In this document: piece after piece, positions 37,993-63,853 of the stretch
Layout: each line of letters opens with the position of its first letter
How positions within the stretch are numbered: the stretch's first letter is position 1
Assembly (NCBI GenBank): GCA_033182465.1
Contig: CP137318.1
Span: forward strand, 4,427,667 to 4,491,666
Source of the DNA: Sanghuangporus weigelae
Lineage: Eukaryota > Basidiomycota > Agaricomycetes > Hymenochaetales > Hymenochaetaceae
DNA: 64,000 nt
Direction: 5' to 3'
Program-made: the position numbers and the translations under genes
Notes under the pieces: model-generated
Told to the model about the DNA's origin: nothing
The model's input: the letters and a program-made list of their open reading frames with translations, nothing else
Databases searched by the model: none

Positions 37993-38024
37993 GGTGAAGC
38001 AAATATCCCAAAAGCGAGCTAAAA

Positions 38025-38105
38025 GACTAATCAGCTATTGGTGAGTGGGGGAACACACACCTCCAATTTCGCCTTTTTATAAGGCTCGTCAGGCTGTACT
38101 TAGTC
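38025..38105 (-). ncRNA. Hammerhead ribozyme, unit 1
   Basis: Same fold as described for unit 3 (45029-45109). It differs at the cleavage-site base: position 17 is A instead of U, and both are allowed (H = A, C or U). Confidence 0.85.
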
Positions 38106-38813
38106 AGTCATGTTAGTCAGTCCACTCCGTGTCGGAGTCGGGGTTAGTCAGTCAGTTGTCAAAAATTATTACTCACCGATCTTTCCGATTGGTTGGAGCA
38201 TCACGTGCTGTCATGTGAACGGGCCGAAACGTAATATCGTCAGTGTAAACACTTAGTAAGGCCGCGTACCTTTTTCCGATCACGGGTTTGTGATCGGATC
38301 TTGATCCTATCATGCCGGTGCAGATCCGAGTGATGTCCGATTTGATCCGAGTTACGTAATCTAATGGAATCACCTGACAGTGTATGTCACGCACTATCAA
38401 AACATGGGTTAGCACCTCTAGGAGTTTAGGTGTTAGGCTTAGCGTTAGGATTAGCTAAGGATATCAAGAACATGTCAGAATAATTGACTTATATACGATT
38501 AAGTATAGTACATACGGTTAGGCTTAGGTTCAGGTTAGGCTTGGGGGCTCTAAAAGACCACGATTAATAAAACCGTAACGAAATAGTACCGTAGTACCTA
38601 CCGACTGAATGTGACTGTCCTACAGAATACACAAAGATTTACTCTTCCTTCACTAACGGCGCTCGGAGGGTATTTTTACCTACTGACGGCTAGATCTGGT
38701 AACTCAACAAAGATTAACAAGTGCATAAATACGGCTCACCTCGTCGCTCACACGTTTCGGGTGACCCATGCCCTTACTATGAGGAGTCTGTAGTTCACCT
38801 ACACACCTGCTTT

Positions 38814-40597
38814 TCATCGCCAAGCTGTAGAGTTGTCTTTGGGTGAGGCCCGTCCAATAATAATTTCGTCTCCATCTTCGATCGGTTTACCATCTGCCCT
38901 TCGTCGGGGCGGCGTACCAGGAGGTATGTTAATATTGGCGGGTGTAGCGATAGTAGCTGGAGGAGGGTCTGTTTCCATTATCCCTCCTTCGTCCTTGGCT
39001 ACTAACTCATCCAAGTGTTCAAAAACTGTCTTTTTCCATAATGATGCGAGATCAAATAAATTCCTTGTTCGCTTTCGTGAGACAAGGATTCTCCGGTTAA
39101 GGATATCTAGCTTACGCACGTCAGGTACGAAGATTTGCTCCGTCCCAGTCGCATTGCGAACCCCCGTAGAGGCGGCCGTAGACCCTGAGATATCATCACC
39201 AACCAACGACATCGGTGCTGGGAACTCTATATTATAAGGTTCACATCGTTCGGCTCTTTCGAGCCACTCGACCCAGTATCCGAAGATAGTTTTTGATAAT
39301 TCTGTAGCTGAAAAGTAATTCCAGACCATGTTATATTCTGATTTAAGAACAAGAACGTTTGCGGGCTCCCGTTTAGGACCATTGGAAGAGATCCGATTTT
39401 GCCATCGTTCTTGGATATTATTTTTAAGCCATGATATAACAAGTTCACGTGGGTAACCACGTTGCACGTATAAGGAGACTAATCCATGAAGTGCATCAGA
39501 GTAATGTGACCATGTACTGCTGAGTGTGGCTAAGCGCGACATTTCGCCAATGAACGTACCTCTTTTGACATCCATTGGGTGATGTGATATGAATGGAATT
39601 CTTTCTTGATGGTTCCGTGCTTTGCGGTATGGCATGTGTTGGAGAAGACCGTAATGGTCTCTGTATATGTACATGTCAAGGAAGGGTTGCCCGTAGGCAG
39701 ACGCGGACCATTCAATGGTGCAACCATCGAACTTTATGAGACTGCTGACGAGATTACATGCTTCAGTTTCGCTATCAGCATATACTAGTGCAAGGCAGTC
39801 GTCGATGTACCTTCCGTAAAATGGGATTGACGGATGGGTAAGAATGTTGGCTTTACTTTCAAAGAACCAACCGAATAAATTAGCAAGATCCGGTGAGTCT
39901 GCGACACCCATTGCGAGGCCGCGGATTTGAAGGTAAAACTGTTCTTGAAATTGCAATACAAGATCGGTATTAGCACAATATAGAGCGTGTTTAAAGAACT
40001 CTTGTTGTTCTTTCACGAAAAACGTAGGTTCGCGATTGTCTAACATTCGTTGCCAATAATGGTTAATATACATGTCGTACACTATATCGAGACATTGTAA
40101 TAGAGGAATGTTTGGGTAGAATGCGACTACGTCACCGGTGACTATAAACCATCGGCGATGTGTGCTAATATTGATTTTGCTGAATTTTAGCGCCAGATCT
40201 TTTGTACCATGTATAATGGTAGGCGCCGACTGGATAATCGGTTTCAGCATTTTTGAACAATACTTTGCATAGGGGTTTTGCATGGCACTATGACATGGAA
40301 CAATCGGTCGTAGTTTGACGGGTTGTTTATGGATTTTGGGTATACCATAAAAGGTAGGCACATGATAGTTACGTTGAAATGCATTAATAAAATCGTTGTC
40401 TTCCGGTAATTTAGACCGCAAAAAGTCAGCGACTGATCCGTATTGATATGGGACATATGCATCAGCGTCTTCAGATAATTCTGAGCAAAGTTTGTATTTA
40501 ACGTCAAGATATTTCCAAACTTGTGTACGAGTCAAGGGTTGATAATCCTTTTCTGACTTGAGAATGTCGAGACATTTGTCTATGATCCAAGTTCTCT
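38814..40597 (-). pseudogene. N-terminally truncated PLE reverse transcriptase
   Basis: Open frame from the truncation at 40597 to the stop at 38814, about 594 codons; the first internal Met gives 573 aa. All reverse-transcriptase motifs are kept (TGDVVAFYPNIP, GLAMGVADSP, YIDD), but the N-terminal 570 residues of the full protein, including the TDKNLG motif, are missing. Confidence 0.88.
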
Positions 40598-40602
40598 TTG
40601 GC

Positions 40603-40620
40603 TTAGGGTTAGGGTTAGGC
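40603..40620 (+). repeat. Telomeric repeat between units 1 and 2
   Basis: TTAGGG-TTAGGG-TTAGGC. It shows that unit 1, after truncation, was capped by telomeric DNA before unit 2 was added. Confidence 0.9.
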
Positions 40621-40652
40621 GGTGAAGCAAATATCCCAAAAGCGAGCTAAAA

Positions 40653-40733
40653 GACTAATCAGCAATTGGTGAGTGGGGGAACACACACCTCCAATTTCGC
40701 CTTTTTATAAGGCTCGTCAGGCTGTACTTAGTC
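40653..40733 (-). ncRNA. Hammerhead ribozyme, unit 2
   Basis: Identical in core and stems to the unit 3 copy (45029-45109). Confidence 0.88.
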
Positions 40734-41440
40734 AGTCATGTTAGTCAGTCCGCTCCGTGTCGGAGTCGGGGTTAGTCAGTCAGTTGTCAAAAATTATTAC
40801 TCACCGATCTTTCCGATTGGTTGGAGTATCACGTGCTGTCATGTGAACGGGCCGAAACGTAATATCGTCAGTGTAAACACTTAGTAAGGCCGCGTACCTT
40901 TTTCCGATCACGGGTTTGTGATCGGATCTTGATCCTATCATGCCGGTGCAGATCCGAGTGATGTCCGATTTGATCCGAGTTACGTAATCTAATGGAATCA
41001 CCTGACAGTGTATGTCACGCACTATCAAAACATGGGTTAGCACCTCTAGGAGTTAGGTGTTAGGCTTAGCGTTAGGATTAGCTAAGGATATCAAGAACAT
41101 GTCAGAATAATTGACTTATATACGATTAAGTATAGTACATACGGTTAGGCTTAGGTTCAGGTTAGGCTTGGGGGCTCTAAAAGACCACGATTAATAAAAT
41201 CGTAACGAAATAGTACCGTAGTACCTACCGACTGAATGTGACTGTCCTACAGAATACACAAAGATTTACTCTTCCTTCACTAACGGCGCTCGGAGGGTAT
41301 TTTTACCTACTGACGGCTAGATCTGGTAACTCAACAACGATTAACAAGTGCATAAATACGGCTCACCTCGTCGCTCACACGTTTCGGGTGACCCATGCCC
41401 TTACTATGAGGAGTCTGTAGTTCACCTACACACCTGCTTT

Positions 41441-44400
41441 TCATCGCCAAGCTGTAGAGTTGTCTTTGGGTGAGGCCCGTCCAATAATAATTTCGTCTCC
41501 GTCTTCGATCGGTTTACCATCTGCCCTTCGTCGGGGCGGCGTACCAGGAGGTATGTTAATATTGGCGGGCGTAGCGATAGTAGCTGGAGGAGGGTCTGTT
41601 TCCATTATCCCTCCTTCGTCCTTGGCTACTAACTCATCCAAGTGTTCAAAAACTGTCTTTTTCCATAATGATGCGAGATCAAATAAATTCCTTGTTCGCT
41701 TTCGTGAGACAAGGATTCTCCGGTTAAGGATATCTAGCTTACGCACGTCAGGTACGAAGATTTGCTCCGTCCCAGTCGCATTGCGAACCCCCGTAGAGGC
41801 GGCCGTAGACCCTGAGATATCATCACCAACCAACGACATCGGTGCTGGGAACTCTATATTATAAGGTTCACATCGTTCGGCTCTTTCGAGCCACTCGACC
41901 CAGTATCCGAAGATAGTTTTTGATAATTCTGTAGCTGAAAAGTAATTCCAGACCATGTTATATTCTGATTTAAGAACAAGAACGTTTGCGGGCTCCCGTT
42001 TAGGACCATTGGAAGAGATCCGATTTTGCCATCGTTCTTGGATATTATTTTTAAGCCATGATATAACAAGTTCACGTGGGTAACCACGTTGCACGTATAA
42101 GGAGACTAATCCATGAAGTGCATCAGAGTAATGTGACCATGTACTGCTGAGTGTGGCTAAGCGCGACATTTCGCCAATGAACGTACCTCTTTTGACATCC
42201 ATTGGGTGATGTGATATGAATGGAATTCTTTCTTGATGGTTCCGTGCTTTGCGGTATGGCATGTGTTGGAGAAGACCGTAATGGTCTCTGTATATGTACA
42301 TGTCAAGGAAGGGTTGCCCGTAGGCAGACGCGGACCATTCAATAGTGCAACCATCGAACTTTATGAGACTGCTGACGAGATTACATGCTTCAGTTTCGCT
42401 ATCAGCATATACTAGTGCAAGGCAGTCGTCGATGTACCTTCCGTAAAATGGAATTGACGGATGGGTAAGAATGTTGGCTTTACTTTCAAAGAACCAACCG
42501 AATAAATTAGCAAGATCCGGTGAGTCTGCGACACCCATTGCGAGGCCGCGAATTTGGAGGTAAAACTGTTCTTGAAATTGCAATACAAGATCGGTATTAG
42601 CACAATATAGAGCGTGTTTAAAGAACTCTTGTTGTTCTTTCACAAAAAACGTAGGTTCGCGATTGTCTAACATTCGTTGCCAATAATGGTTAATATACAT
42701 GTCGTACACTATATCAAGACATTGTAATAGAGGAATGTTTGGGTAGAATGCGACTACGTCACCGGTGACTATAAACCATCGGCGATGTGTGCTATTATTG
42801 ATTTTGCTGAATTTTAGCGCCAGATCTTTTGTACCATGTATAATGGTAGGCGCCGACTGGATAATCGGTTTCAGCATTTTTGAACAATACTTTGCATAGG
42901 GGTTTTGCATGGCACTGTGACATGGAACAATCGGTCGTAGTTTGACGGGTTGTTTATGGATTTTGGGTATACCATAAAAGGTAGGCACATGATAGTTACG
43001 TTGAAATGCATTAATAAAATCGTTGTCTTCCGGTAATTTAGACCGCAAAAAGTCAGCGACTGATCCGTATTGATATGGGACATATGCATCAGCGTCTTCA
43101 GATAATTCTGAGCAAAGTTTGTATTTAATGTCAAGATATTTCCAAGCTTGTGTACGAGTCAAGGGTTGATAATCCTTTTCTGACTTGAGAATGTCGAGAC
43201 ATTTGTCTATGATCCAAGTTCTCTCAGACACCGCAATGCCCAAGTTCTTATCAGTATGTGTGATTACATAATTATGTTCACTTAAGAATTTCTCGAGGGT
43301 ATGGATGGCCGGATTGAGAGGTTTAAATTGATCCGGTTCGTCCTTAAGAGGTATTTTTTCAATCGATTTAAATACGAAATGATTACCCTTCTTAAGGCCC
43401 CATTCGAGATATAGCGGTAGCACGGGCGGTTTATTTTTTGTAGTTTTACGCACGTCATAATCGGGGTCATAGAACTCATCGCTTACACCAAAGGGCGATG
43501 CTTTATCAAATGCAAATTTAAGACGCCATCTTAATCTACGTTTGAAGTCATTCCAGGCGCTAGTAATAAGTTTAGCATTACCTGGACGCATGAACATATA
43601 TTTCATGCCTACACTCAGTTGGTGACTTAATTCAGTTGGAAGGCTCACACCAGGGCTGCAATGAACGAGATTCTTAAATTGGGCGGCACTGATAATATCT
43701 ACAGGCGTATTTAAGATTACTATTTTAACTGCATCCATGAAGGGGATATCAAGAATCCAATCCGGAATGAGATGGGGTTTTCCTGGCATATATACGAATG
43801 TGTCTGCGTACCGTTTCATGCCTTGCTCTTTCCCTTTCCCTTTCCTTTCGGAGCTTTCTTCTTTAAAACCGAGGTTTTGGACTTCGGTACGGGTTTGCGC
43901 GAAAGTGCGGATCCGATCTTGCCTTTGCCTTTTCCGAGGGCAGGCGGGATGTATCGCGGCGCGTTTACCGGTTTGGAGGTTGACGACTTCTTTTTCGGGT
44001 TCTGTGGTATTCCAGAATGTCATATCACTGAGTGTACTAGTGAGATGATCTACTGGACTACCGACCTTTTTGCCTTTCTTAGGCGCGTTAACCTTTTTGA
44101 GCCGACTCGATATTGCTTTATCGATCGCAGATTGAATCGATGGGGCGACTTTCGAGCTTGAAGCTGTAGTTGCGTCGGCCATTTCGATGTCGGCTGTCTT
44201 CGCTATCTGCCTTTTGCGATCTTTCTTTTGATCCGCAATAAGATGCCGGCCATTGACGATATCGATAGCGCGGTATACGTAAGCCATACAGTCGCAAAGG
44301 AGTTCTTCGGCAATACGTGCAGCAACGGGGGATGGACGCCATTCGAGTACTTGTTCCTGTTGCCCTGTCTGTTCGTTCATTTTCATGACAAATTCGGGAA

Positions 44401-44938
44401 GCAACTGGGAAGTAGTAAGCACTGCGCCGCGAGCTTTGACTAAGTCGCTGATCTCGCGGAAGAGGCGCTCATGGTTCATACGGTCCTTTAGGAAAATGAC
44501 TTCATCCTCTTTTTCAGCGATTGCCGCTGAGAGAACGTCCTTAAGGTAAGCATCATGAATAGACGCAACCGTAGATTCCACGACCCGCCCCGTTTCAGCC
44601 TTGTATTCCTTCGTCTTTTGGACAGCAGGGGCTTGAGAACGGATAAAGGCGGGGATCTTTCCGGCGCTTTGAGCGCTCCGCCAGTTCTCCAGACTGACTT
44701 TCGCCTTCTGCAGCTTTTCAGCCGTAGACGCGATGGAAAGAAGAGGTGACCGCAGAAGCGACCGGTAGTCCGCAGGGACTAGAGAAATTAACTCCTCCAG
44801 GCTAGAGGCCGCCTGGAGCCGGTGGATGCGTCCATAGCGCGCTTGCGAATTTCCTGCAGATTTACTGAGAAAATCCGAAGGGCCTGCATCCGTCAAAGGG
44901 GACATGGCCCGCAAAAGCGTAGAGGTAAAAGAGTTCAT
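41441..44938 (-). CDS. PLE polyprotein: reverse transcriptase without GIY-YIG endonuclease
   Basis: 1,165 aa; the ATG is in a good context (CCCACCATGA). Residues 1 to about 540 have no recognised domain but carry basic clusters near 286 (KKVNAPKKGKKVG), 338 (PRKRQRQDR) and 365 (SERKGKGKEQG) that could be nuclear or nucleic-acid signals. A TDKNLG motif (D563) precedes the reverse transcriptase. Then come LRPIVPC (R668), motif A TGDVVAFYPNIP (D727), motif B GLAMGVADSPDL (from G798), motif C RYIDDCLAL (D837, D838) and a thumb-like region to about 960. The tail is Ser/Pro-rich. There is no GIY-YIG signature, which is what separates telomere-attached Athena/Coprina elements from canonical Penelope. 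It would copy element RNA onto a chromosome 3' end. A telomerase assignment is unlikely because of the PLE-type motif A (DVVAFYPNIP) and tandem repetition. Confidence 0.93.
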   Translation of the reverse strand: MNSFTSTLLRAMSPLTDAGPSDFLSKSAGNSQARYGRIHRLQAASSLEELISLVPADYRSLLRSPLLSIASTAEKLQKAKVSLENWRSAQSAGKIPAFIRSQAPAVQKTKEYKAETGRVVESTVASIHDAYLKDVLSAAIAEKEDEVIFLKDRMNHERLFREISDLVKARGAVLTTSQLLPEFVMKMNEQTGQQEQVLEWRPSPVAARIAEELLCDCMAYVYRAIDIVNGRHLIADQKKDRKRQIAKTADIEMADATTASSSKVAPSIQSAIDKAISSRLKKVNAPKKGKKVGSPVDHLTSTLSDMTFWNTTEPEKEVVNLQTGKRAAIHPACPRKRQRQDRIRTFAQTRTEVQNLGFKEESSERKGKGKEQGMKRYADTFVYMPGKPHLIPDWILDIPFMDAVKIVILNTPVDIISAAQFKNLVHCSPGVSLPTELSHQLSVGMKYMFMRPGNAKLITSAWNDFKRRLRWRLKFAFDKASPFGVSDEFYDPDYDVRKTTKNKPPVLPLYLEWGLKKGNHFVFKSIEKIPLKDEPDQFKPLNPAIHTLEKFLSEHNYVITHTDKNLGIAVSERTWIIDKCLDILKSEKDYQPLTRTQAWKYLDIKYKLCSELSEDADAYVPYQYGSVADFLRSKLPEDNDFINAFQRNYHVPTFYGIPKIHKQPVKLRPIVPCHSAMQNPYAKYCSKMLKPIIQSAPTIIHGTKDLALKFSKINNSTHRRWFIVTGDVVAFYPNIPLLQCLDIVYDMYINHYWQRMLDNREPTFFVKEQQEFFKHALYCANTDLVLQFQEQFYLQIRGLAMGVADSPDLANLFGWFFESKANILTHPSIPFYGRYIDDCLALVYADSETEACNLVSSLIKFDGCTIEWSASAYGQPFLDMYIYRDHYGLLQHMPYRKARNHQERIPFISHHPMDVKRGTFIGEMSRLATLSSTWSHYSDALHGLVSLYVQRGYPRELVISWLKNNIQERWQNRISSNGPKREPANVLVLKSEYNMVWNYFSATELSKTIFGYWVEWLERAERCEPYNIEFPAPMSLVGDDISGSTAASTGVRNATGTEQIFVPDVRKLDILNRRILVSRKRTRNLFDLASLWKKTVFEHLDELVAKDEGGIMETDPPPATIATPANINIPPGTPPRRRADGKPIEDGDEIIIGRASPKDNSTAWR

Positions 44939-45028
44939 GGTGGGGAAGAAAATACAAGTATGCTAGGGCGACAGGGGATGTAATGGTGGGTTAGGCGGTG
45001 AAGCAAATATCCCAAAAGCGAGCTAAAA

Positions 45029-45109
45029 GACTAATCAGCAATTGGTGAGTGGGGGAACACACACCTCCAATTTCGCCTTTTTATAAGGCTCGTCAGGCTG
45101 TACTTAGTC
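45029..45109 (-). ncRNA. Type I hammerhead ribozyme, unit 3 (reference copy)
   Basis: Minus-strand reading. Stem I 5' strand GACUAA-GUAC-AGC, then core CUGACGA, stem II GCCUU/AAGGC with loop AUAAA, core GAA, stem III AUUGG/CCAAU (A15.1-U16.1 first pair) enclosing a 21-nt partly paired loop, position 17 U, and stem I 3' strand GCU-GA-UUAGUC. Stem I has 3 bp (AGC/GCU), an internal loop, then 6 bp (GACUAA/UUAGUC). G10.1-C11.1 and G1.1-C2.1 are both kept. The internal loop in stem I and the loop on stem II could make the usual tertiary contact. The predicted cut lies between 45040 and 45039, about 43 nt before the element's 3' end. Hammerheads are known in Penelope-like elements; activity here is untested. 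Confidence 0.9.
45078..45085 (-). promoter_or_regulatory. TATA-like box inside ribozyme stem II loop
   Basis: Minus strand TATAAAAA, about 140 bp upstream of the ATG at 44938 of the neighbouring proximal unit. The same site occurs in every unit (starts 38074, 40702, 49454, 49899, 54275, 54744, 59120, 63496). It could drive transcription of the proximal ORF. The match is a short AT-rich motif, so it may simply be the ribozyme loop. Confidence 0.4.
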
Positions 45110-45279
45110 AGTCATGTTAGTCAGTCCGCTCCGTGTCGGAGTCGGGGTTAGTCAGTCAGTTGTCAAAAATTATTACTCACCGATCTTTCCGATTGGTTGG
45201 AGTATCACGTGCTGTCATGTGAACGGGCCGAAACGTAATATCGTCAGTGTAAACACTTAGTAAGGCCGCGTACCTTTTT

Positions 45280-45301
45280 CCGATCACGGGTTTGTGATCG
45301 G
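45280..45301. repeat. 8-bp hairpin in the terminal segment
   Basis: CCGATCAC and GTGATCGG separated by six bases. It is present at the same offset (+283) in each unit I inspected. It is close to a second small hairpin (CTCCG-TGT-CGGAG near 45130) and to repeated TAGTCAGTC motifs. The role is unknown; RNA structure or a protein site are options. Confidence 0.7.
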
Positions 45302-45433
45302 ATCTTGATCCTATCATGCCGGTGCAGATCCGAGTGATGTCCGATTTGATCCGAGTTACGTAATCTAATGGAATCACCTGACAGTGTATGTCACGCACTA
45401 TCAAAACATGGGTTAGCACCTCTAGGAGTTAGG

Positions 45434-45816: not shown

Positions 45817-48800
45817 TCATCGCCAAGCTGTAGAGTTGTCTTTGGGTGAGGCCCGTCCAATAATAATTTCGTCTCCGTCTTCGATCGGTTTACCATCTGC
45901 CCTTCGTCGGGGCGGCGTACCAGGAGGTATGTTAATATTGGCGGGCGTAGCGATAGTAGCTGGAGGAGGGTCTGTTTCCATTATCCCTCCTTCGTCCTTG
46001 GCTACTAACTCATCCAAGTGTTCAAAAACTGTCTTTTTCCATAATGATGCGAGATCAAATAAATTCCTTGTTCGCTTTCGTGAGACAAGGATTCTCCGGT
46101 TAAGGATATCTAGCTTACGCACGTCAGGTACGAAGATTTGCTCCGTCCCAGTCGCATTGCGAACCCCCGTAGAGGCGGCCGTAGACCCTGAGATATCATC
46201 ACCAACCAACGACATCGGTGCTGGGAACTCTATATTATAAGGTTCACATCGTTCGGCTCTTTCGAGCCACTCGACCCAGTATCCGAAGATAGTTTTTGAT
46301 AATTCTGTAGCTGAAAAGTAATTCCAGACCATGTTATATTCTGATTTAAGAACAAGAACGTTTGCGGGCTCCCGTTTAGGACCATTGGAAGAGATCCGAT
46401 TTTGCCATCGTTCTTGGATATTATTTTTAAGCCATGATATAACAAGTTCACGTGGGTAACCACGTTGCACGTATAAGGAGACTAATCCATGAAGTGCATC
46501 AGAGTAATGTGACCATGTACTGCTGAGTGTGGCTAAGCGCGACATTTCGCCAATGAACGTACCTCTTTTGACATCCATTGGGTGATGTGATATGAATGGA
46601 ATTCTTTCTTGATGGTTCCGTGCTTTGCGGTATGGCATGTGTTGGAGAAGACCGTAATGGTCTCTGTATATGTACATGTCAAGGAAGGGTTGCCCGTAGG
46701 CAGACGCGGACCATTCAATAGTGCAACCATCGAACTTTATGAGACTGCTGACGAGATTACATGCTTCAGTTTCGCTATCAGCATATACTAGTGCAAGGCA
46801 GTCGTCGATGTACCTTCCGTAAAATGGAATTGACGGATGGGTAAGAATGTTGGCTTTACTTTCAAAGAACCAACCGAATAAATTAGCAAGATCCGGTGAG
46901 TCTGCGACACCCATTGCGAGGCCGCGAATTTGGAGGTAAAACTGTTCTTGAAATTGCAATACAAGATCGGTATTAGCACAATATAGAGCGTGTTTAAAGA
47001 ACTCTTGTTGTTCTTTCACAAAAAACGTAGGTTCGCGATTGTCTAACATTCGTTGCCAATAATGGTTAATATACATGTCGTACACTATATCAAGACATTG
47101 TAATAGAGGAATGTTTGGGTAGAATGCGACTACGTCACCGGTGACTATAAACCATCGGCGATGTGTGCTATTATTGATTTTGCTGAATTTTAGCGCCAGA
47201 TCTTTTGTACCATGTATAATGGTAGGCGCCGACTGGATAATCGGTTTCAGCATTTTTGAACAATACTTTGCATAGGGGTTTTGCATGGCACTGTGACATG
47301 GAACAATCGGTCGTAGTTTGACGGGTTGTTTATGGATTTTGGGTATACCATAAAAGGTAGGCACATGATAGTTACGTTGAAATGCATTAATAAAATCGTT
47401 GTCTTCCGGTAATTTAGACCGCAAAAAGTCAGCGACTGATCCGTATTGATATGGGACATATGCATCAGCGTCTTCAGATAATTCTGAGCAAAGTTTGTAT
47501 TTAATGTCAAGATATTTCCAAGCTTGTGTACGAGTCAAGGGTTGATAATCCTTTTCTGACTTGAGAATGTCGAGACATTTGTCTATGATCCAAGTTCTCT
47601 CAGACACCGCAATGCCCAAGTTCTTATCAGTATGTGTGATTACATAATTATGTTCACTTAAGAATTTCTCGAGGGTATGGATGGCCGGATTGAGAGGTTT
47701 AAATTGATCCGGTTCGTCCTTAAGAGGTATTTTTTCAATCGATTTAAATACGAAATGATTACCCTTCTTAAGGCCCCATTCGAGATATAGCGGTAGCACG
47801 GGCGGTTTATTTTTTGTAGTTTTACGCACGTCATAATCGGGGTCATAGAACTCATCGCTTACACCAAAGGGCGATGCTTTATCAAATGCAAATTTAAGAC
47901 GCCATCTTAATCTACGTTTGAAGTCATTCCAGGCGCTAGTAATAAGTTTAGCATTACCTGGACGCATGAACATATATTTCATGCCTACACTCAGTTGGTG
48001 ACTTAATTCAGTTGGAAGGCTCACACCAGGGCTGCAATGAACGAGATTCTTAAATTGGGCGGCACTGATAATATCTACAGGCGTATTTAAGATTACTATT
48101 TTAACTGCATCCATGAAGGGGATATCAAGAATCCAATCCGGAATGAGATGGGGTTTTCCTGGCATATATACGAATGTGTCTGCGTACCGTTTCATGCCTT
48201 GCTCTTTCCCTTTCCCTTTCCTTTCGGAGCTTTCTTCTTTAAAACCGAGGTTTTGGACTTCGGTACGGGTTTGCGCGAAAGTGCGGATCCGATCTTGCCT
48301 TTGCCTTTTCCGAGGGCAGGCGGGATGTATCGCGGCGCGTTTACCGGTTTGGAGGTTGACGACTTCTTTTTCGGGTTCTGTGGTATTCCAGAATGTCATA
48401 TCACTGAGTGTACTAGTGAGATGATCTACTGGACTACCGACCTTTTTGCCTTTCTTAGGCGCGTTAACCTTTTTGAGCCGACTCGATATTGCTTTATCGA
48501 TCGCAGATTGAATCGATGGGGCGACTTTCGAGCTTGAAGCTGTAGTTGCGTCGGCCATTTCGATGTCGGCTGTCTTCGCTATCTGCCTTTTGCGATCTTT
48601 CTTTTGATCCGCAATAAGATGCCGGCCATTGACGATATCGATAGCGCGGTATACGTAAGCCATACAGTCGCAAAGGAGTTCTTCGGCAATACGTGCAGCA
48701 ACGGGGGATGGACGCCATTCGAGTACTTGTTCCTGTTGCCCTGTCTGTTCGTTCATTTTCATGACAAATTCGGGAAGCAACTGGGAAGTAGTAAGCACTG

Positions 48801-49314: not shown

Positions 49315-49372
49315 GGTGGGGAAGAAAATACAAGTATGCTAGGGCGACAGGGGATGTAATGGTGGGTTAGGC

Positions 49373-49817: not shown

Positions 49818-49849
49818 GGTGAAGCAAATATCCCAAAAGCGAGCTAAAA

Positions 49850-54135: not shown

Positions 54136-54193
54136 GGTGGGGAAGAAAATACAAGTATGCTAGGGCGACAGGGGATGTAATGGTGGGTTAGGC

Positions 54194-54662
54194 GGTGAAG
54201 CAAATATCCCAAAAGCGAGCTAAAAGACTAATCAGCAATTGGTGAGTGGGGGAACACACACCTCCAATTTCGCCTTTTTATAAGGCTCGTCAGGCTGTAC
54301 TTAGTCAGTCATGTTAGTCAGTCCGCTCCGTGTCGGAGTCGGGGTTAGTCAGTCAGTTGTCAAAAATTATTACTCACCGATCTTTCCGATTGGTTGGAGT
54401 ATCACGTGCTGTCATGTGAACGGGCCGAAACGTAATATCGTCAGTGTAAACACTTAGTAAGGCCGCGTACCTTTTTCCGATCACGGGTTTGTGATCGGAT
54501 CTTGATCCTATCATGCCGGTGCAGATCCGAGTGATGTCCGATTTGATCCGAGTTACGTAATCTAATGGAATCACCTGACAGTGTATGTCACGCACTATCA
54601 AAACATGGGTTAGCACCTCTAGGAGTTAGGTGTTAGGCTTAGCGTTAGGATTAGGGTTAGGC
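54194..54662 (-). mobile_element. PLE unit 6, short copy
   Basis: 469 bp. It keeps the 439-bp segment and a further 17-18 bp (TTAGGC-TTAGCG-TTAGGA) of the next region, then changes to TTAGGG-TTAGGC (54651-54662). It is therefore a separate truncation event from unit 4, again inside telomere-like sequence. Confidence 0.9.
54226..54306 (-). ncRNA. Hammerhead ribozyme, unit 6
   Basis: Same sequence as 45029-45109. Confidence 0.88.
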
Positions 54663-54694
54663 GGTGAAGCAAATATCCCAAAAGCGAGCTAAAA

Positions 54695-54775
54695 GACTAA
54701 TCAGCAATTGGTGAGTGGGGGAACACACACCTCCAATTTCGCCTTTTTATAAGGCTCGTCAGGCTGTACTTAGTC
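54695..54775 (-). ncRNA. Hammerhead ribozyme, unit 7
   Basis: Same sequence as 45029-45109. Confidence 0.88.
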
Positions 54776-55482
54776 AGTCATGTTAGTCAGTCCGCTCCGT
54801 GTCGGAGTCGGGGTTAGTCAGTCAGTTGTCAAAAATTATTACTCACCGATCTTTCCGATTGGTTGGAGTATCACGTGCTGTCATGTGAACGGGCCGAAAC
54901 GTAATATCGTCAGTGTAAACACTTAGTAAGGCCGCGTACCTTTTTCCGATCACGGGTTTGTGATCGGATCTTGATCCTATCATGCCGGTGCAGATCCGAG
55001 TGATGTCCGATTTGATCCGAGTTACGTAATCTAATGGAATCACCTGACAGTGTATGTCACGCACTATCAAAACATGGGTTAGCACCTCTAGGAGTTAGGT
55101 GTTAGGCTTAGCGTTAGGATTAGCTAAGGATATCAAGAACATGTCAGAATAATTGACTTATATACGATTAAGTATAGTACATACGGTTAGGCTTAGGTTC
55201 AGGTTAGGCTTGGGGGCTCTAAAAGACCACGATTAATAAAATCGTAACGAAATAGTACCGTAGTACCTACCGACTGAATGTGACTGTCCTACAGAATACA
55301 CAAAGATTTACTCTTCCTTCACTAACGGCGCTCGGAGGGTATTTTTACCTACTGACGGCTAGATCTGGTAACTCAACAACGATTAACAAGTGCATAAATA
55401 CGGCTCACCTCGTCGCTCACACGTTTCGGGTGACCCATGCCCTTACTATGAGGAGTCTGTAGTTCACCTACACACCTGCTTT

Positions 55483-58400
55483 TCATCGCCAAGCTGTAGA
55501 GTTGTCTTTGGGTGAGGCCCGTCCAATAATAATTTCGTCTCCGTCTTCGATCGGTTTACCATCTGCCCTTCGTCGGGGCGGCGTACCAGGAGGTATGTTA
55601 ATATTGGCGGGCGTAGCGATAGTAGCTGGAGGAGGGTCTGTTTCCATTATCCCTCCTTCGTCCTTGGCTACTAACTCATCCAAGTGTTCAAAAACTGTCT
55701 TTTTCCATAATGATGCGAGATCAAATAAATTCCTTGTTCGCTTTCGTGAGACAAGGATTCTCCGGTTAAGGATATCTAGCTTACGCACGTCAGGTACGAA
55801 GATTTGCTCCGTCCCAGTCGCATTGCGAACCCCCGTAGAGGCGGCCGTAGACCCTGAGATATCATCACCAACCAACGACATCGGTGCTGGGAACTCTATA
55901 TTATAAGGTTCACATCGTTCGGCTCTTTCGAGCCACTCGACCCAGTATCCGAAGATAGTTTTTGATAATTCTGTAGCTGAAAAGTAATTCCAGACCATGT
56001 TATATTCTGATTTAAGAACAAGAACGTTTGCGGGCTCCCGTTTAGGACCATTGGAAGAGATCCGATTTTGCCATCGTTCTTGGATATTATTTTTAAGCCA
56101 TGATATAACAAGTTCACGTGGGTAACCACGTTGCACGTATAAGGAGACTAATCCATGAAGTGCATCAGAGTAATGTGACCATGTACTGCTGAGTGTGGCT
56201 AAGCGCGACATTTCGCCAATGAACGTACCTCTTTTGACATCCATTGGGTGATGTGATATGAATGGAATTCTTTCTTGATGGTTCCGTGCTTTGCGGTATG
56301 GCATGTGTTGGAGAAGACCGTAATGGTCTCTGTATATGTACATGTCAAGGAAGGGTTGCCCGTAGGCAGACGCGGACCATTCAATAGTGCAACCATCGAA
56401 CTTTATGAGACTGCTGACGAGATTACATGCTTCAGTTTCGCTATCAGCATATACTAGTGCAAGGCAGTCGTCGATGTACCTTCCGTAAAATGGAATTGAC
56501 GGATGGGTAAGAATGTTGGCTTTACTTTCAAAGAACCAACCGAATAAATTAGCAAGATCCGGTGAGTCTGCGACACCCATTGCGAGGCCGCGAATTTGGA
56601 GGTAAAACTGTTCTTGAAATTGCAATACAAGATCGGTATTAGCACAATATAGAGCGTGTTTAAAGAACTCTTGTTGTTCTTTCACAAAAAACGTAGGTTC
56701 GCGATTGTCTAACATTCGTTGCCAATAATGGTTAATATACATGTCGTACACTATATCAAGACATTGTAATAGAGGAATGTTTGGGTAGAATGCGACTACG
56801 TCACCGGTGACTATAAACCATCGGCGATGTGTGCTATTATTGATTTTGCTGAATTTTAGCGCCAGATCTTTTGTACCATGTATAATGGTAGGCGCCGACT
56901 GGATAATCGGTTTCAGCATTTTTGAACAATACTTTGCATAGGGGTTTTGCATGGCACTGTGACATGGAACAATCGGTCGTAGTTTGACGGGTTGTTTATG
57001 GATTTTGGGTATACCATAAAAGGTAGGCACATGATAGTTACGTTGAAATGCATTAATAAAATCGTTGTCTTCCGGTAATTTAGACCGCAAAAAGTCAGCG
57101 ACTGATCCGTATTGATATGGGACATATGCATCAGCGTCTTCAGATAATTCTGAGCAAAGTTTGTATTTAATGTCAAGATATTTCCAAGCTTGTGTACGAG
57201 TCAAGGGTTGATAATCCTTTTCTGACTTGAGAATGTCGAGACATTTGTCTATGATCCAAGTTCTCTCAGACACCGCAATGCCCAAGTTCTTATCAGTATG
57301 TGTGATTACATAATTATGTTCACTTAAGAATTTCTCGAGGGTATGGATGGCCGGATTGAGAGGTTTAAATTGATCCGGTTCGTCCTTAAGAGGTATTTTT
57401 TCAATCGATTTAAATACGAAATGATTACCCTTCTTAAGGCCCCATTCGAGATATAGCGGTAGCACGGGCGGTTTATTTTTTGTAGTTTTACGCACGTCAT
57501 AATCGGGGTCATAGAACTCATCGCTTACACCAAAGGGCGATGCTTTATCAAATGCAAATTTAAGACGCCATCTTAATCTACGTTTGAAGTCATTCCAGGC
57601 GCTAGTAATAAGTTTAGCATTACCTGGACGCATGAACATATATTTCATGCCTACACTCAGTTGGTGACTTAATTCAGTTGGAAGGCTCACACCAGGGCTG
57701 CAATGAACGAGATTCTTAAATTGGGCGGCACTGATAATATCTACAGGCGTATTTAAGATTACTATTTTAACTGCATCCATGAAGGGGATATCAAGAATCC
57801 AATCCGGAATGAGATGGGGTTTTCCTGGCATATATACGAATGTGTCTGCGTACCGTTTCATGCCTTGCTCTTTCCCTTTCCCTTTCCTTTCGGAGCTTTC
57901 TTCTTTAAAACCGAGGTTTTGGACTTCGGTACGGGTTTGCGCGAAAGTGCGGATCCGATCTTGCCTTTGCCTTTTCCGAGGGCAGGCGGGATGTATCGCG
58001 GCGCGTTTACCGGTTTGGAGGTTGACGACTTCTTTTTCGGGTTCTGTGGTATTCCAGAATGTCATATCACTGAGTGTACTAGTGAGATGATCTACTGGAC
58101 TACCGACCTTTTTGCCTTTCTTAGGCGCGTTAACCTTTTTGAGCCGACTCGATATTGCTTTATCGATCGCAGATTGAATCGATGGGGCGACTTTCGAGCT
58201 TGAAGCTGTAGTTGCGTCGGCCATTTCGATGTCGGCTGTCTTCGCTATCTGCCTTTTGCGATCTTTCTTTTGATCCGCAATAAGATGCCGGCCATTGACG
58301 ATATCGATAGCGCGGTATACGTAAGCCATACAGTCGCAAAGGAGTTCTTCGGCAATACGTGCAGCAACGGGGGATGGACGCCATTCGAGTACTTGTTCCT

Positions 58401-58980
58401 GTTGCCCTGTCTGTTCGTTCATTTTCATGACAAATTCGGGAAGCAACTGGGAAGTAGTAAGCACTGCGCCGCGAGCTTTGACTAAGTCGCTGATCTCGCG
58501 GAAGAGGCGCTCATGGTTCATACGGTCCTTTAGGAAAATGACTTCATCCTCTTTTTCAGCGATTGCCGCTGAGAGAACGTCCTTAAGGTAAGCATCATGA
58601 ATAGACGCAACCGTAGATTCCACGACCCGCCCCGTTTCAGCCTTGTATTCCTTCGTCTTTTGGACAGCAGGGGCTTGAGAACGGATAAAGGCGGGGATCT
58701 TTCCGGCGCTTTGAGCGCTCCGCCAGTTCTCCAGACTGACTTTCGCCTTCTGCAGCTTTTCAGCCGTAGACGCGATGGAAAGAAGAGGTGACCGCAGAAG
58801 CGACCGGTAGTCCGCAGGGACTAGAGAAATTAACTCCTCCAGGCTAGAGGCCGCCTGGAGCCGGTGGATGCGTCCATAGCGCGCTTGCGAATTTCCTGCA
58901 GATTTACTGAGAAAATCCGAAGGGCCTGCATCCGTCAAAGGGGACATGGCCCGCAAAAGCGTAGAGGTAAAAGAGTTCAT
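55483..58980 (-). CDS. PLE reverse transcriptase, unit 7
   Basis: 1,165 aa, identical to the unit 2 protein; domains as at 41441-44938. Confidence 0.93.
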   Translation of the reverse strand: MNSFTSTLLRAMSPLTDAGPSDFLSKSAGNSQARYGRIHRLQAASSLEELISLVPADYRSLLRSPLLSIASTAEKLQKAKVSLENWRSAQSAGKIPAFIRSQAPAVQKTKEYKAETGRVVESTVASIHDAYLKDVLSAAIAEKEDEVIFLKDRMNHERLFREISDLVKARGAVLTTSQLLPEFVMKMNEQTGQQEQVLEWRPSPVAARIAEELLCDCMAYVYRAIDIVNGRHLIADQKKDRKRQIAKTADIEMADATTASSSKVAPSIQSAIDKAISSRLKKVNAPKKGKKVGSPVDHLTSTLSDMTFWNTTEPEKEVVNLQTGKRAAIHPACPRKRQRQDRIRTFAQTRTEVQNLGFKEESSERKGKGKEQGMKRYADTFVYMPGKPHLIPDWILDIPFMDAVKIVILNTPVDIISAAQFKNLVHCSPGVSLPTELSHQLSVGMKYMFMRPGNAKLITSAWNDFKRRLRWRLKFAFDKASPFGVSDEFYDPDYDVRKTTKNKPPVLPLYLEWGLKKGNHFVFKSIEKIPLKDEPDQFKPLNPAIHTLEKFLSEHNYVITHTDKNLGIAVSERTWIIDKCLDILKSEKDYQPLTRTQAWKYLDIKYKLCSELSEDADAYVPYQYGSVADFLRSKLPEDNDFINAFQRNYHVPTFYGIPKIHKQPVKLRPIVPCHSAMQNPYAKYCSKMLKPIIQSAPTIIHGTKDLALKFSKINNSTHRRWFIVTGDVVAFYPNIPLLQCLDIVYDMYINHYWQRMLDNREPTFFVKEQQEFFKHALYCANTDLVLQFQEQFYLQIRGLAMGVADSPDLANLFGWFFESKANILTHPSIPFYGRYIDDCLALVYADSETEACNLVSSLIKFDGCTIEWSASAYGQPFLDMYIYRDHYGLLQHMPYRKARNHQERIPFISHHPMDVKRGTFIGEMSRLATLSSTWSHYSDALHGLVSLYVQRGYPRELVISWLKNNIQERWQNRISSNGPKREPANVLVLKSEYNMVWNYFSATELSKTIFGYWVEWLERAERCEPYNIEFPAPMSLVGDDISGSTAASTGVRNATGTEQIFVPDVRKLDILNRRILVSRKRTRNLFDLASLWKKTVFEHLDELVAKDEGGIMETDPPPATIATPANINIPPGTPPRRRADGKPIEDGDEIIIGRASPKDNSTAWR

Positions 58981-59070
58981 GGTGGGGAAGAAAATACAAG
59001 TATGCTAGGGCGACAGGGGATGTAATGGTGGGTTAGGCGGTGAAGCAAATATCCCAAAAGCGAGCTAAAA

Positions 59071-59151
59071 GACTAATCAGCAATTGGTGAGTGGGGGAAC
59101 ACACACCTCCAATTTCGCCTTTTTATAAGGCTCGTCAGGCTGTACTTAGTC
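59071..59151 (-). ncRNA. Hammerhead ribozyme, unit 8
   Basis: Same sequence as 45029-45109. Confidence 0.88.
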
Positions 59152-59858
59152 AGTCATGTTAGTCAGTCCGCTCCGTGTCGGAGTCGGGGTTAGTCAGTCA
59201 GTTGTCAAAAATTATTACTCACCGATCTTTCCGATTGGTTGGAGTATCACGTGCTGTCATGTGAACGGGCCGAAACGTAATATCGTCAGTGTAAACACTT
59301 AGTAAGGCCGCGTACCTTTTTCCGATCACGGGTTTGTGATCGGATCTTGATCCTATCATGCCGGTGCAGATCCGAGTGATGTCCGATTTGATCCGAGTTA
59401 CGTAATCTAATGGAATCACCTGACAGTGTATGTCACGCACTATCAAAACATGGGTTAGCACCTCTAGGAGTTAGGTGTTAGGCTTAGCGTTAGGATTAGC
59501 TAAGGATATCAAGAACATGTCAGAATAATTGACTTATATACGATTAAGTATAGTACATACGGTTAGGCTTAGGTTCAGGTTAGGCTTGGGGGCTCTAAAA
59601 GACCACGATTAATAAAATCGTAACGAAATAGTACCGTAGTACCTACCGACTGAATGTGACTGTCCTACAGAATACACAAAGATTTACTCTTCCTTCACTA
59701 ACGGCGCTCGGAGGGTATTTTTACCTACTGACGGCTAGATCTGGTAACTCAACAACGATTAACAAGTGCATAAATACGGCTCACCTCGTCGCTCACACGT
59801 TTCGGGTGACCCATGCCCTTACTATGAGGAGTCTGTAGTTCACCTACACACCTGCTTT

Positions 59859-62800
59859 TCATCGCCAAGCTGTAGAGTTGTCTTTGGGTGAGGCCCGTCC
59901 AATAATAATTTCGTCTCCGTCTTCGATCGGTTTACCATCTGCCCTTCGTCGGGGCGGCGTACCAGGAGGTATGTTAATATTGGCGGGCGTAGCGATAGTA
60001 GCTGGAGGAGGGTCTGTTTCCATTATCCCTCCTTCGTCCTTGGCTACTAACTCATCCAAGTGTTCAAAAACTGTCTTTTTCCATAATGATGCGAGATCAA
60101 ATAAATTCCTTGTTCGCTTTCGTGAGACAAGGATTCTCCGGTTAAGGATATCTAGCTTACGCACGTCAGGTACGAAGATTTGCTCCGTCCCAGTCGCATT
60201 GCGAACCCCCGTAGAGGCGGCCGTAGACCCTGAGATATCATCACCAACCAACGACATCGGTGCTGGGAACTCTATATTATAAGGTTCACATCGTTCGGCT
60301 CTTTCGAGCCACTCGACCCAGTATCCGAAGATAGTTTTTGATAATTCTGTAGCTGAAAAGTAATTCCAGACCATGTTATATTCTGATTTAAGAACAAGAA
60401 CGTTTGCGGGCTCCCGTTTAGGACCATTGGAAGAGATCCGATTTTGCCATCGTTCTTGGATATTATTTTTAAGCCATGATATAACAAGTTCACGTGGGTA
60501 ACCACGTTGCACGTATAAGGAGACTAATCCATGAAGTGCATCAGAGTAATGTGACCATGTACTGCTGAGTGTGGCTAAGCGCGACATTTCGCCAATGAAC
60601 GTACCTCTTTTGACATCCATTGGGTGATGTGATATGAATGGAATTCTTTCTTGATGGTTCCGTGCTTTGCGGTATGGCATGTGTTGGAGAAGACCGTAAT
60701 GGTCTCTGTATATGTACATGTCAAGGAAGGGTTGCCCGTAGGCAGACGCGGACCATTCAATAGTGCAACCATCGAACTTTATGAGACTGCTGACGAGATT
60801 ACATGCTTCAGTTTCGCTATCAGCATATACTAGTGCAAGGCAGTCGTCGATGTACCTTCCGTAAAATGGAATTGACGGATGGGTAAGAATGTTGGCTTTA
60901 CTTTCAAAGAACCAACCGAATAAATTAGCAAGATCCGGTGAGTCTGCGACACCCATTGCGAGGCCGCGAATTTGGAGGTAAAACTGTTCTTGAAATTGCA
61001 ATACAAGATCGGTATTAGCACAATATAGAGCGTGTTTAAAGAACTCTTGTTGTTCTTTCACAAAAAACGTAGGTTCGCGATTGTCTAACATTCGTTGCCA
61101 ATAATGGTTAATATACATGTCGTACACTATATCAAGACATTGTAATAGAGGAATGTTTGGGTAGAATGCGACTACGTCACCGGTGACTATAAACCATCGG
61201 CGATGTGTGCTATTATTGATTTTGCTGAATTTTAGCGCCAGATCTTTTGTACCATGTATAATGGTAGGCGCCGACTGGATAATCGGTTTCAGCATTTTTG
61301 AACAATACTTTGCATAGGGGTTTTGCATGGCACTGTGACATGGAACAATCGGTCGTAGTTTGACGGGTTGTTTATGGATTTTGGGTATACCATAAAAGGT
61401 AGGCACATGATAGTTACGTTGAAATGCATTAATAAAATCGTTGTCTTCCGGTAATTTAGACCGCAAAAAGTCAGCGACTGATCCGTATTGATATGGGACA
61501 TATGCATCAGCGTCTTCAGATAATTCTGAGCAAAGTTTGTATTTAATGTCAAGATATTTCCAAGCTTGTGTACGAGTCAAGGGTTGATAATCCTTTTCTG
61601 ACTTGAGAATGTCGAGACATTTGTCTATGATCCAAGTTCTCTCAGACACCGCAATGCCCAAGTTCTTATCAGTATGTGTGATTACATAATTATGTTCACT
61701 TAAGAATTTCTCGAGGGTATGGATGGCCGGATTGAGAGGTTTAAATTGATCCGGTTCGTCCTTAAGAGGTATTTTTTCAATCGATTTAAATACGAAATGA
61801 TTACCCTTCTTAAGGCCCCATTCGAGATATAGCGGTAGCACGGGCGGTTTATTTTTTGTAGTTTTACGCACGTCATAATCGGGGTCATAGAACTCATCGC
61901 TTACACCAAAGGGCGATGCTTTATCAAATGCAAATTTAAGACGCCATCTTAATCTACGTTTGAAGTCATTCCAGGCGCTAGTAATAAGTTTAGCATTACC
62001 TGGACGCATGAACATATATTTCATGCCTACACTCAGTTGGTGACTTAATTCAGTTGGAAGGCTCACACCAGGGCTGCAATGAACGAGATTCTTAAATTGG
62101 GCGGCACTGATAATATCTACAGGCGTATTTAAGATTACTATTTTAACTGCATCCATGAAGGGGATATCAAGAATCCAATCCGGAATGAGATGGGGTTTTC
62201 CTGGCATATATACGAATGTGTCTGCGTACCGTTTCATGCCTTGCTCTTTCCCTTTCCCTTTCCTTTCGGAGCTTTCTTCTTTAAAACCGAGGTTTTGGAC
62301 TTCGGTACGGGTTTGCGCGAAAGTGCGGATCCGATCTTGCCTTTGCCTTTTCCGAGGGCAGGCGGGATGTATCGCGGCGCGTTTACCGGTTTGGAGGTTG
62401 ACGACTTCTTTTTCGGGTTCTGTGGTATTCCAGAATGTCATATCACTGAGTGTACTAGTGAGATGATCTACTGGACTACCGACCTTTTTGCCTTTCTTAG
62501 GCGCGTTAACCTTTTTGAGCCGACTCGATATTGCTTTATCGATCGCAGATTGAATCGATGGGGCGACTTTCGAGCTTGAAGCTGTAGTTGCGTCGGCCAT
62601 TTCGATGTCGGCTGTCTTCGCTATCTGCCTTTTGCGATCTTTCTTTTGATCCGCAATAAGATGCCGGCCATTGACGATATCGATAGCGCGGTATACGTAA
62701 GCCATACAGTCGCAAAGGAGTTCTTCGGCAATACGTGCAGCAACGGGGGATGGACGCCATTCGAGTACTTGTTCCTGTTGCCCTGTCTGTTCGTTCATTT

Positions 62801-63356
62801 TCATGACAAATTCGGGAAGCAACTGGGAAGTAGTAAGCACTGCGCCGCGAGCTTTGACTAAGTCGCTGATCTCGCGGAAGAGGCGCTCATGGTTCATACG
62901 GTCCTTTAGGAAAATGACTTCATCCTCTTTTTCAGCGATTGCCGCTGAGAGAACGTCCTTAAGGTAAGCATCATGAATAGACGCAACCGTAGATTCCACG
63001 ACCCGCCCCGTTTCAGCCTTGTATTCCTTCGTCTTTTGGACAGCAGGGGCTTGAGAACGGATAAAGGCGGGGATCTTTCCGGCGCTTTGAGCGCTCCGCC
63101 AGTTCTCCAGACTGACTTTCGCCTTCTGCAGCTTTTCAGCCGTAGACGCGATGGAAAGAAGAGGTGACCGCAGAAGCGACCGGTAGTCCGCAGGGACTAG
63201 AGAAATTAACTCCTCCAGGCTAGAGGCCGCCTGGAGCCGGTGGATGCGTCCATAGCGCGCTTGCGAATTTCCTGCAGATTTACTGAGAAAATCCGAAGGG
63301 CCTGCATCCGTCAAAGGGGACATGGCCCGCAAAAGCGTAGAGGTAAAAGAGTTCAT
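59859..63356 (-). CDS. PLE reverse transcriptase, unit 8
   Basis: 1,165 aa, identical to the unit 2 protein; domains as at 41441-44938. Confidence 0.93.
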   Translation of the reverse strand: MNSFTSTLLRAMSPLTDAGPSDFLSKSAGNSQARYGRIHRLQAASSLEELISLVPADYRSLLRSPLLSIASTAEKLQKAKVSLENWRSAQSAGKIPAFIRSQAPAVQKTKEYKAETGRVVESTVASIHDAYLKDVLSAAIAEKEDEVIFLKDRMNHERLFREISDLVKARGAVLTTSQLLPEFVMKMNEQTGQQEQVLEWRPSPVAARIAEELLCDCMAYVYRAIDIVNGRHLIADQKKDRKRQIAKTADIEMADATTASSSKVAPSIQSAIDKAISSRLKKVNAPKKGKKVGSPVDHLTSTLSDMTFWNTTEPEKEVVNLQTGKRAAIHPACPRKRQRQDRIRTFAQTRTEVQNLGFKEESSERKGKGKEQGMKRYADTFVYMPGKPHLIPDWILDIPFMDAVKIVILNTPVDIISAAQFKNLVHCSPGVSLPTELSHQLSVGMKYMFMRPGNAKLITSAWNDFKRRLRWRLKFAFDKASPFGVSDEFYDPDYDVRKTTKNKPPVLPLYLEWGLKKGNHFVFKSIEKIPLKDEPDQFKPLNPAIHTLEKFLSEHNYVITHTDKNLGIAVSERTWIIDKCLDILKSEKDYQPLTRTQAWKYLDIKYKLCSELSEDADAYVPYQYGSVADFLRSKLPEDNDFINAFQRNYHVPTFYGIPKIHKQPVKLRPIVPCHSAMQNPYAKYCSKMLKPIIQSAPTIIHGTKDLALKFSKINNSTHRRWFIVTGDVVAFYPNIPLLQCLDIVYDMYINHYWQRMLDNREPTFFVKEQQEFFKHALYCANTDLVLQFQEQFYLQIRGLAMGVADSPDLANLFGWFFESKANILTHPSIPFYGRYIDDCLALVYADSETEACNLVSSLIKFDGCTIEWSASAYGQPFLDMYIYRDHYGLLQHMPYRKARNHQERIPFISHHPMDVKRGTFIGEMSRLATLSSTWSHYSDALHGLVSLYVQRGYPRELVISWLKNNIQERWQNRISSNGPKREPANVLVLKSEYNMVWNYFSATELSKTIFGYWVEWLERAERCEPYNIEFPAPMSLVGDDISGSTAASTGVRNATGTEQIFVPDVRKLDILNRRILVSRKRTRNLFDLASLWKKTVFEHLDELVAKDEGGIMETDPPPATIATPANINIPPGTPPRRRADGKPIEDGDEIIIGRASPKDNSTAWR

Positions 63357-63414
63357 GGTGGGGAAGAAAATACAAGTATGCTAGGGCGACAGGGGATGTA
63401 ATGGTGGGTTAGGC

Positions 63415-63853
63415 GGTGAAGCAAATATCCCAAAAGCGAGCTAAAAGACTAATCAGCAATTGGTGAGTGGGGGAACACACACCTCCAATTTCGCCTTTTT
63501 ATAAGGCTCGTCAGGCTGTACTTAGTCAGTCATGTTAGTCAGTCCGCTCCGTGTCGGAGTCGGGGTTAGTCAGTCAGTTGTCAAAAATTATTACTCACCG
63601 ATCTTTCCGATTGGTTGGAGTATCACGTGCTGTCATGTGAACGGGCCGAAACGTAATATCGTCAGTGTAAACACTTAGTAAGGCCGCGTACCTTTTTCCG
63701 ATCACGGGTTTGTGATCGGATCTTGATCCTATCATGCCGGTGCAGATCCGAGTGATGTCCGATTTGATCCGAGTTACGTAATCTAATGGAATCACCTGAC
63801 AGTGTATGTCACGCACTATCAAAACATGGGTTAGCACCTCTAGGAGTTAGGTG
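63415..63853 (-). mobile_element. PLE unit 9, short copy capped by telomere
   Basis: 439 bp, the same extent as unit 4. At its distal edge the internal TTAGGC passes straight into the terminal repeat; the first base that differs from full units is near 63865 (TTAGGG instead of TTAGCG). Confidence 0.9.
63447..63527 (-). ncRNA. Hammerhead ribozyme, unit 9
   Basis: Same sequence as 45029-45109. It is the most distal copy, next to the terminal repeat. Confidence 0.88.

Follow-up and report, generated by a model that had tools for sequence, protein, structure and literature searches.

The right end of a chromosome of the fungus Sanghuangporus weigelae carries a tandem array of a probable Penelope-like element (PLE) whose pseudo-long terminal repeats (pLTRs) hold a hammerhead ribozyme motif. 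The array is probably a stack of insertions of a telomere-attached, apparently endonuclease-free element, copied from RNA that was left uncut by the hammerhead and was primed internally by the telomere. The stretch of DNA analyzed (the window) comprises 64,000 nucleotides (GenBank assembly GCA_033182465.1, contig CP137318.1, positions 4,427,667 to 4,491,666) and is the right end of contig C1 in an assembly of 33.87 Mb and 13 contigs. Sixteen hydrophobin matches in the genome, against none in 14 control prokaryotes, fit a filamentous fungus. Units of 4376 bp with pLTRs stand in tandem; they are not giant, and each has a single long open reading frame (ORF) of 1165 aa and no accessory ORFs. The hammerhead lies inside the pLTR, in sense orientation upstream of the ORF, with the predicted cut 101 nt before the ATG. 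A DNA search of the genome, the count of which is a lower bound, places at least 20 pLTR copies at 9 of the 26 chromosome ends (C1R, C2L, C4L, C5L, C6R, C7L, C9L, C10L and C12L). The elements are joined to telomere repeats, and their ORFs read away from the chromosome end.

The junctions at these nine ends were read as 12 insertion events. Four are at the right end of C1: event A is a truncated unit, C a single unit, and B and D are two units each. The remaining events, named here after their contigs, are one unit each in C5, C9, and C12, a truncated unit in C7, and a pLTR alone in C2, C4, C6, and C10. On the centromere side, all 12 events have their junction at the same telomere-complementary site, some 52 nt 3′ of the predicted cut. 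This site, GCCTAACCC, is at 44988–44996 on the minus strand and is the same in each pLTR; we regard it as the putative internal start of reverse transcription on a telomeric primer. GCCTAACCC is complementary to GGGTTAGGC, where the two alternating telomere units meet, and the telomere-complementary stretch lies 43–52 nt from the cut. The junction sequence is GCCTAAC or GCCTAACCC in 11 of the 12 events and, via a substitution, ACCTAACCC in C10. In its context the junction reads ...CACCGCCTAAC or ...CACCGCCTAACCC in the same number of events, and CACCACCTAACCC, again by substitution, in C10.

On the telomere side, the boundary is at the pLTR start in five events (B, C, D, C2, and C5), of which event C extends beyond it by at most 24 nt, into 3′ sequence of a preceding unit. 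The boundary is truncated in the other seven (A, C4, C6, C7, C9, C10, and C12). None of the 12 distal boundaries falls at the predicted cut, which is between pLTR positions 381 and 382. A template cut at the hammerhead would leave a 52-nt stub, and no such stub was found: the 24-nt stretch 3′ of the cut, searched for in the whole genome with up to three mismatches, occurs in 20 places, all of them in pLTRs.

These boundaries bear directly on the idea that the hammerhead trims the RNA in the manner of R2-type ribozymes, each new copy beginning at the cut. The sense placement of the motif, with its cut shortly before the ATG, would suit such a function, but no insertion ends at the cut, five continue beyond it for at least about 380 nt, and the genome is free of 52-nt stubs. 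As the maker of the 5′ ends of inserted copies the hammerhead is thus rejected on the count of zero in 12, and we consider the idea highly improbable. Rather, a putative start of reverse transcription 3′ of the cut, taken together with the absence of boundaries at the cut, means that the templates were either uncut or were circles closed again by ligation. In the circular scheme, both hammerheads of a unit would cut, the released 4376-nt RNA would be ligated, and reverse transcription would roll from GCCUAACCC. The spacing from one hammerhead to the next equals the unit length, a ligated circle likewise leaves no boundary at the cut, two-unit insertions exist, and retrozymes form hammerhead circles (PMC6155905). 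Against it, a circle lacks a 5′ end, whereas five of the 12 insertions share an end within one short stretch where the pLTR begins, and the solo-pLTR insertion that ends there (C2) is unexpected from a 4376-nt circle. The sharp 5′ ends favor a linear RNA with a defined start, and circular templates are, in our judgment, unlikely. The templates of the inserted copies were apparently not cut by the hammerhead, as judged from the DNA junctions.

From the observed motif, its location, junctions, and conservation, we infer the following course for uncut, telomere-primed templates. Transcription would start at or just upstream of a pLTR, often reading through at least one further unit. The primer would be the G-rich 3′ overhang of the telomere (...GGGTTAGGC), and reverse transcription would start at the internal GCCUAACCC in the pLTR leader, roughly 52 nt beyond the hammerhead cut. 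Copying toward the 5′ end of the RNA would extend the chromosome end by a pLTR and 0, 1, or 2 whole units, as would be expected from RNA that reads through across units. Telomerase or the next element would then cap the new copy. The sense RNA would carry the hammerhead in its pLTRs, and those molecules that are turned into DNA would be uncut. With the proposed start 3′ of the cut, cleavage would leave the ORF and its priming site on separate molecules. If templates are uncut, the role of the hammerhead would be either structural or that of a regulated cut. In the first case its fold may serve to present the telomere-complementary stretch, as has been published for Terminons; in the second, the cut, possibly protein-assisted, may remove RNA from the template pool or act late.

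Neighboring insertions abut in two places. At 49796–49811 no sequence intervenes (445-bp spacing), and at 54617–54654 there is only element-derived telomere-like sequence (469-bp spacing). Both spacings look as if the telomere-like 5′ end of one element had directly primed the next.

The motif itself was located with a strict descriptor of type I hammerheads, which requires CUGANGA, GAA with A15.1-U16.1, and H17, together with a minimum of 4 bp in each of stems II and III and of 3 bp in inner stem I. The scan yields nine matches on the minus strand of the window, all in sense with the 1165-aa ORFs, and none on the plus strand. The nine copies claimed in the original prediction are thereby recovered with exact coordinates and outer limits of 38025–63527, and the required core bases (CUGANGA, GAA, A15.1-U16.1, and H17) are present in all nine. 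Copy 1 (38025–38105, predicted cut 3′ of 38036) has A at H17, as had been noted beforehand; H17 is U in the other eight. Copy 2 extends from 40653 to 40733 (cut 3′ of 40664, H17 = U). Copy 3 extends from 45029 to 45109, with H17 = U at 45040 and a predicted cut at 45040/45039. Copies 4 and 5, the latter within one of a directly abutting pair of pLTRs, are at 49405–49485 (cut 3′ of 49416) and 49850–49930 (cut 3′ of 49861). Next come copies 6 and 7 at 54226–54306 (cut 3′ of 54237) and 54695–54775 (cut 3′ of 54706), and then copies 8 and 9 at 59071–59151 (cut 3′ of 59082) and 63447–63527 (cut 3′ of 63458).

In the window copies stem I is open and stems II and III are closed, the type I layout. 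For copy 3, stem I is GACUAA(GUA)CAGC / GCUG(A)UUAGUC, the core is CUGACGA, stem II is GCCUU(AUAAA)AAGGC followed by GAA, and stem III is AUUGG..CCAAU. Stem I therefore has 4+6 bp, with an inner stem of CAGC/GCUG, and not the 3+6 bp first described. At about 45104–45160 on the minus strand, upstream of and within stem I, GACTGACTAA or a similar sequence occurs three times; the upstream occurrences could bind UUAGUC in competition with its outer stem I partner.

Simulation of 150 windows of 64 kb (second-order Markov model of the window, both strands) gave no match to the descriptor, and chance is excluded. A looser hammerhead pattern run over the whole genome gives 1100 matches versus 706 for its reversed control and is too unspecific for use. 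The nine copies are 99–100% identical across one 300-bp stretch that holds the motif (family D1), and so represent one motif amplified, counted as one observation; that identity rules out nine independent ribozymes. With this correction to the number, the original reading is borne out in part: the type I hammerhead architecture, the PLE context, and the telomeric position are supported, and an active ribozyme cutting at 45040/45039 is a prediction.

A covariance-model match above threshold, proposed earlier as a check whose failure would refute the motif, was not obtained. Rfam gives no family at gathering score in the window and nothing at E ≤ 10 over 27 kb. A 151-nt piece matches RF00008 over the core and stem II with 12.6 bits and E 4.7, one of four chance-level matches. 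When RF00163 was run on the whole genome, with 73 of 7532 first-look candidates scored, five other sub-threshold places were listed and the pLTRs were not. As a yardstick, IMG/VR viral contigs were scanned for the same stem II, which gave nine loci. With the descriptor relaxed to a 3-bp stem III, four of the nine (L065, L067, L072, and L073) contain motifs, and L065 and L072 have two putative hammerhead motifs each, about 650 bases apart. L068 and L069 each have two stem II pattern matches 227 bases apart and do not fit the full descriptor. Rfam returns none at gathering score for L065, L068, L069, or L072. Because Rfam is also silent on the hammerhead-like motifs of L065 and L072, themselves sequence predictions, the missing match is weighed lightly and not taken as refutation.

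The long stem III loop of the original prediction is present, but it can hold an inner GUG/CAC helix, and a competing GGUG/CACC hairpin can take up bases of stem III. ViennaRNA gives a non-hammerhead minimum-energy fold of −23.5 kcal/mol versus −20.0 for the hammerhead-constrained fold, with P(A15.1-U16.1) = 0.12 and P(GGUG/CACC) = 0.88, energies that take no account of tertiary contacts. The 81-nt piece folds more stably than 200 of 200 shuffles (z −3.1), and for a 121-nt piece the z-score falls to −1.2. Thus, the isolated RNA is predicted to prefer non-hammerhead pairing.

A doubtful elaboration makes the hammerhead a switch of RNA fate, in which stem III is bistable, uncut read-through RNA is primed by the telomere, and cutting ends its use as a template. 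Taken jointly, and with the same doubt, stem III would alternate between the GGUG/CACC hairpin and AUUGG/CCAAU, the internal priming site would be tuned to the host TTAGGGTTAGGC repeat, and a cut, perhaps triggered by protein, would sever the body of the element from the priming site. To this reading also belongs the suggestion, from the 445-bp junction, that successive elements prime on the previous telomere-like 5′ end without telomerase repeats.

The complete hammerhead is kept in 19 of the 20 pLTR copies, the exception being truncated inside the motif. Among the 20, some of which are truncated, 28 of 433 pLTR positions vary. Five variable positions are within the hammerhead: loop II holds one and loop III three, and the fifth is H17, which is U or A and never G. 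None of the 28 is among the 49 core and stem positions (hypergeometric P = 0.031), which is no more than suggestive of constraint on the hammerhead core and stems. This comparison also bears on whether the hammerhead is a relic that has lost its cutting activity and persists as part of a conserved pLTR. A relic would fit the predicted competing fold, with its probability of 0.12 for the closing pair of active stem III, as well as the U or A at H17, the lack of an Rfam match, and uncut templates. The invariant core and stems and the retention of the whole motif in nearly every copy speak against it, and we think a relic quite unlikely.

The pLTR of copy 3, taken as 433 nt for comparison, is at 44988–45420. 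By sequence comparison, the other pLTRs of the window are at 37984–38416, 40612–41044, 49364–49796, 49811–50241, 54185–54617, 54654–55086, 59030–59462, and 63406–63838, all on the minus strand. Also on the minus strand are five identical copies of the 1165-aa ORF, at 41441–44938, 45817–49314, 50638–54135, 55483–58980, and 59859–63356, identified by the ORF list and comparison. The most centromere-proximal insertion has a 5′-truncated ORF (38814–40535, minus strand), capped by short telomere repeats and then by the next insertion. A regular-expression scan of the copy at 45817–49314 found, in the expected order for a reverse transcriptase (RT), FYGIPKIHK, DVVAFYPNIP, GLAMGVADSPDLAN, YGRYIDD, FLDMYI, and SHHPMDVK, read against what we take to be the consensus of the PLE RT family. 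The ORF at 41441–44938 is assigned PLE-type RT motifs through its identity to that copy. The PLE label is based on these motifs, on the tandem arrangement of pLTRs at telomeres, and on the hammerhead. No GIY-YIG motif was found in the ORF or in the six frames of the unit, and no GIY-YIG domain was found by Pfam at E ≤ 10, a weak negative in that Pfam also misses the RT. The element is most likely a PLE without GIY-YIG endonuclease that attaches to fungal telomeres.

The genome holds at least 10 protein matches, all of the same family, and at least eight full-length ORFs; viral contigs hold no relatives of the protein. All eight full-length ORFs compared are open, and the five on C1 are identical. 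Relative to the C1 ORF, nonsynonymous/synonymous codon changes number 13/65 in C12, 12/58 in C9, and 6/13 in C5 (2720/775 sites), that is, ratios of about 0.06, 0.06, and 0.13, so the protein is under purifying selection.

A number of points weigh against the proposal of uncut, telomere-primed templates. It is drawn from genomic DNA and not from RNA. Only 7 of the 12 proximal junctions (A, B, C2, C6, C7, C9, and C12) continue into one or more further host telomere units. That of D meets telomere-like sequence belonging to the element, that of event C directly adjoins the next pLTR at its telomere-like start, and those of C4, C5 (after TAA), and C10 lead into other sequence. The distal boundaries of C7 and C10 border non-telomeric DNA, where a later deletion is possible. 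Zero boundaries in 12 sets a 95% upper bound of 22% on stopping at the cut, on the assumption that stubs are retained no less readily than longer copies and that each event is independent. Full independence does not hold, as the C1 copies are identical and may have been spread by recombination. With regard to the protein, searches of Pfam (at E ≤ 10) and of PDB sequences with the 1165-aa product gave no match, an AlphaFold prediction of 531 aa from the single sequence was unusable (mean pLDDT 38), and the RT assignment depends on the regular-expression motifs and on the assumed PLE consensus. Finally, the 3′ pLTRs of C9 and C12 diverge from that of C1 by 0.69% and 0.46%, whereas synonymous sites diverge by about 7.5% and 8.4%, and homogenization of the pLTRs rather than selection could be the cause of the invariant stems.

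The telomere that the element appears to use is a 12-base heterodimer. Repeats are found within the first 300 nt of 24 of the 26 contig ends, and these terminal stretches contain 327 TTAGGG and 331 TTAGGC units, with 588 of 633 steps alternating. The terminal array of the window, found by repeat scan, occupies 63841–64000 on the plus strand and likewise alternates TTAGGG and TTAGGC. A literature search on such an alternating telomere gave no matching report among the matches listed. Elsewhere in the subtelomere, fragments of a Pol polyprotein with Pol_BBD and SH3_retrovirus domains (24537–27068) mark a retroelement of the long terminal repeat type, and a 36-bp repeat is present in three tandem copies at 27380–27488.

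The array is valuable for the genomic evidence it brings to the unsolved question of what the PLE hammerhead does. Since the fungal assembly is nearly telomere-to-telomere and its insertions are intact and apparently recent, the question becomes readable from DNA junctions. That boundaries are at the telomere-complementary site and not at the cut yields a testable hypothesis: an uncut template, an internal telomere-primed start, and a ribozyme that would separate the ORF from its priming site. Among known systems, the Coprina-type PLEs of basidiomycetes are fungal and telomere-linked, and the present element is likened to them by description, not by sequence. Cervera and De la Pena are said to have described, in 2014, hammerheads stable as monomers in fungal PLEs. 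The PLEs of Agaricus bisporus (PMC7473861) are also fungal and telomere-linked, a likeness again of description and not of sequence. Hammerheads in PLEs, and also the arrangement of a hammerhead with a telomere complement, are already published (PMC6431247); the earlier suspicion that the form is undescribed is thus weak. A literature search gave no report of the present arrangement in a fungus, with the main PLE-hammerhead papers falling outside that search, and this is weak evidence of novelty.

Retrozymes share paired hammerheads in repeats. They are non-autonomous and based on circular RNA, whereas the present element encodes its own RT and, having a 1165-aa ORF, is not a short non-coding element. 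A closer parallel is PAc, the Poseidon PLE of Anolis carolinensis (PMC11167929). PAc shares a pLTR-borne hammerhead, an internal start of reverse transcription 3′ of the hammerhead, and an uncut RNA template; its RNA is cut only when its protein is present, and cutting is dispensable for insertion. PAc differs in having a GIY-YIG endonuclease, in a hammerhead described with stems I and II only, and in a start site that is not homologous to the target, whereas that of the present element is complementary to the telomere.

The Terminons, the Athena-type endonuclease-deficient PLEs of bdelloid rotifers, share still other features (PMC6431247). In both systems no GIY-YIG is found, elements attach to chromosome ends, 5′-truncated copies are capped by telomere repeats, arrays are head-to-tail, and a hammerhead is followed by telomere-complementary sequence. 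In Terminons the telomere-complementary repeats are just 3′ of the hammerhead, which is proposed to be a fold beside that stretch. In contrast to Terminons, which reach up to 40 kb with accessory ORFs, the present element is compact, with a 1165-aa ORF in a 4376-bp unit. Its hammerhead has a full stem III, and its telomere complement fits a TTAGGG/TTAGGC telomere, lies 43–52 nt from the cut, and would be internal to a read-through RNA.

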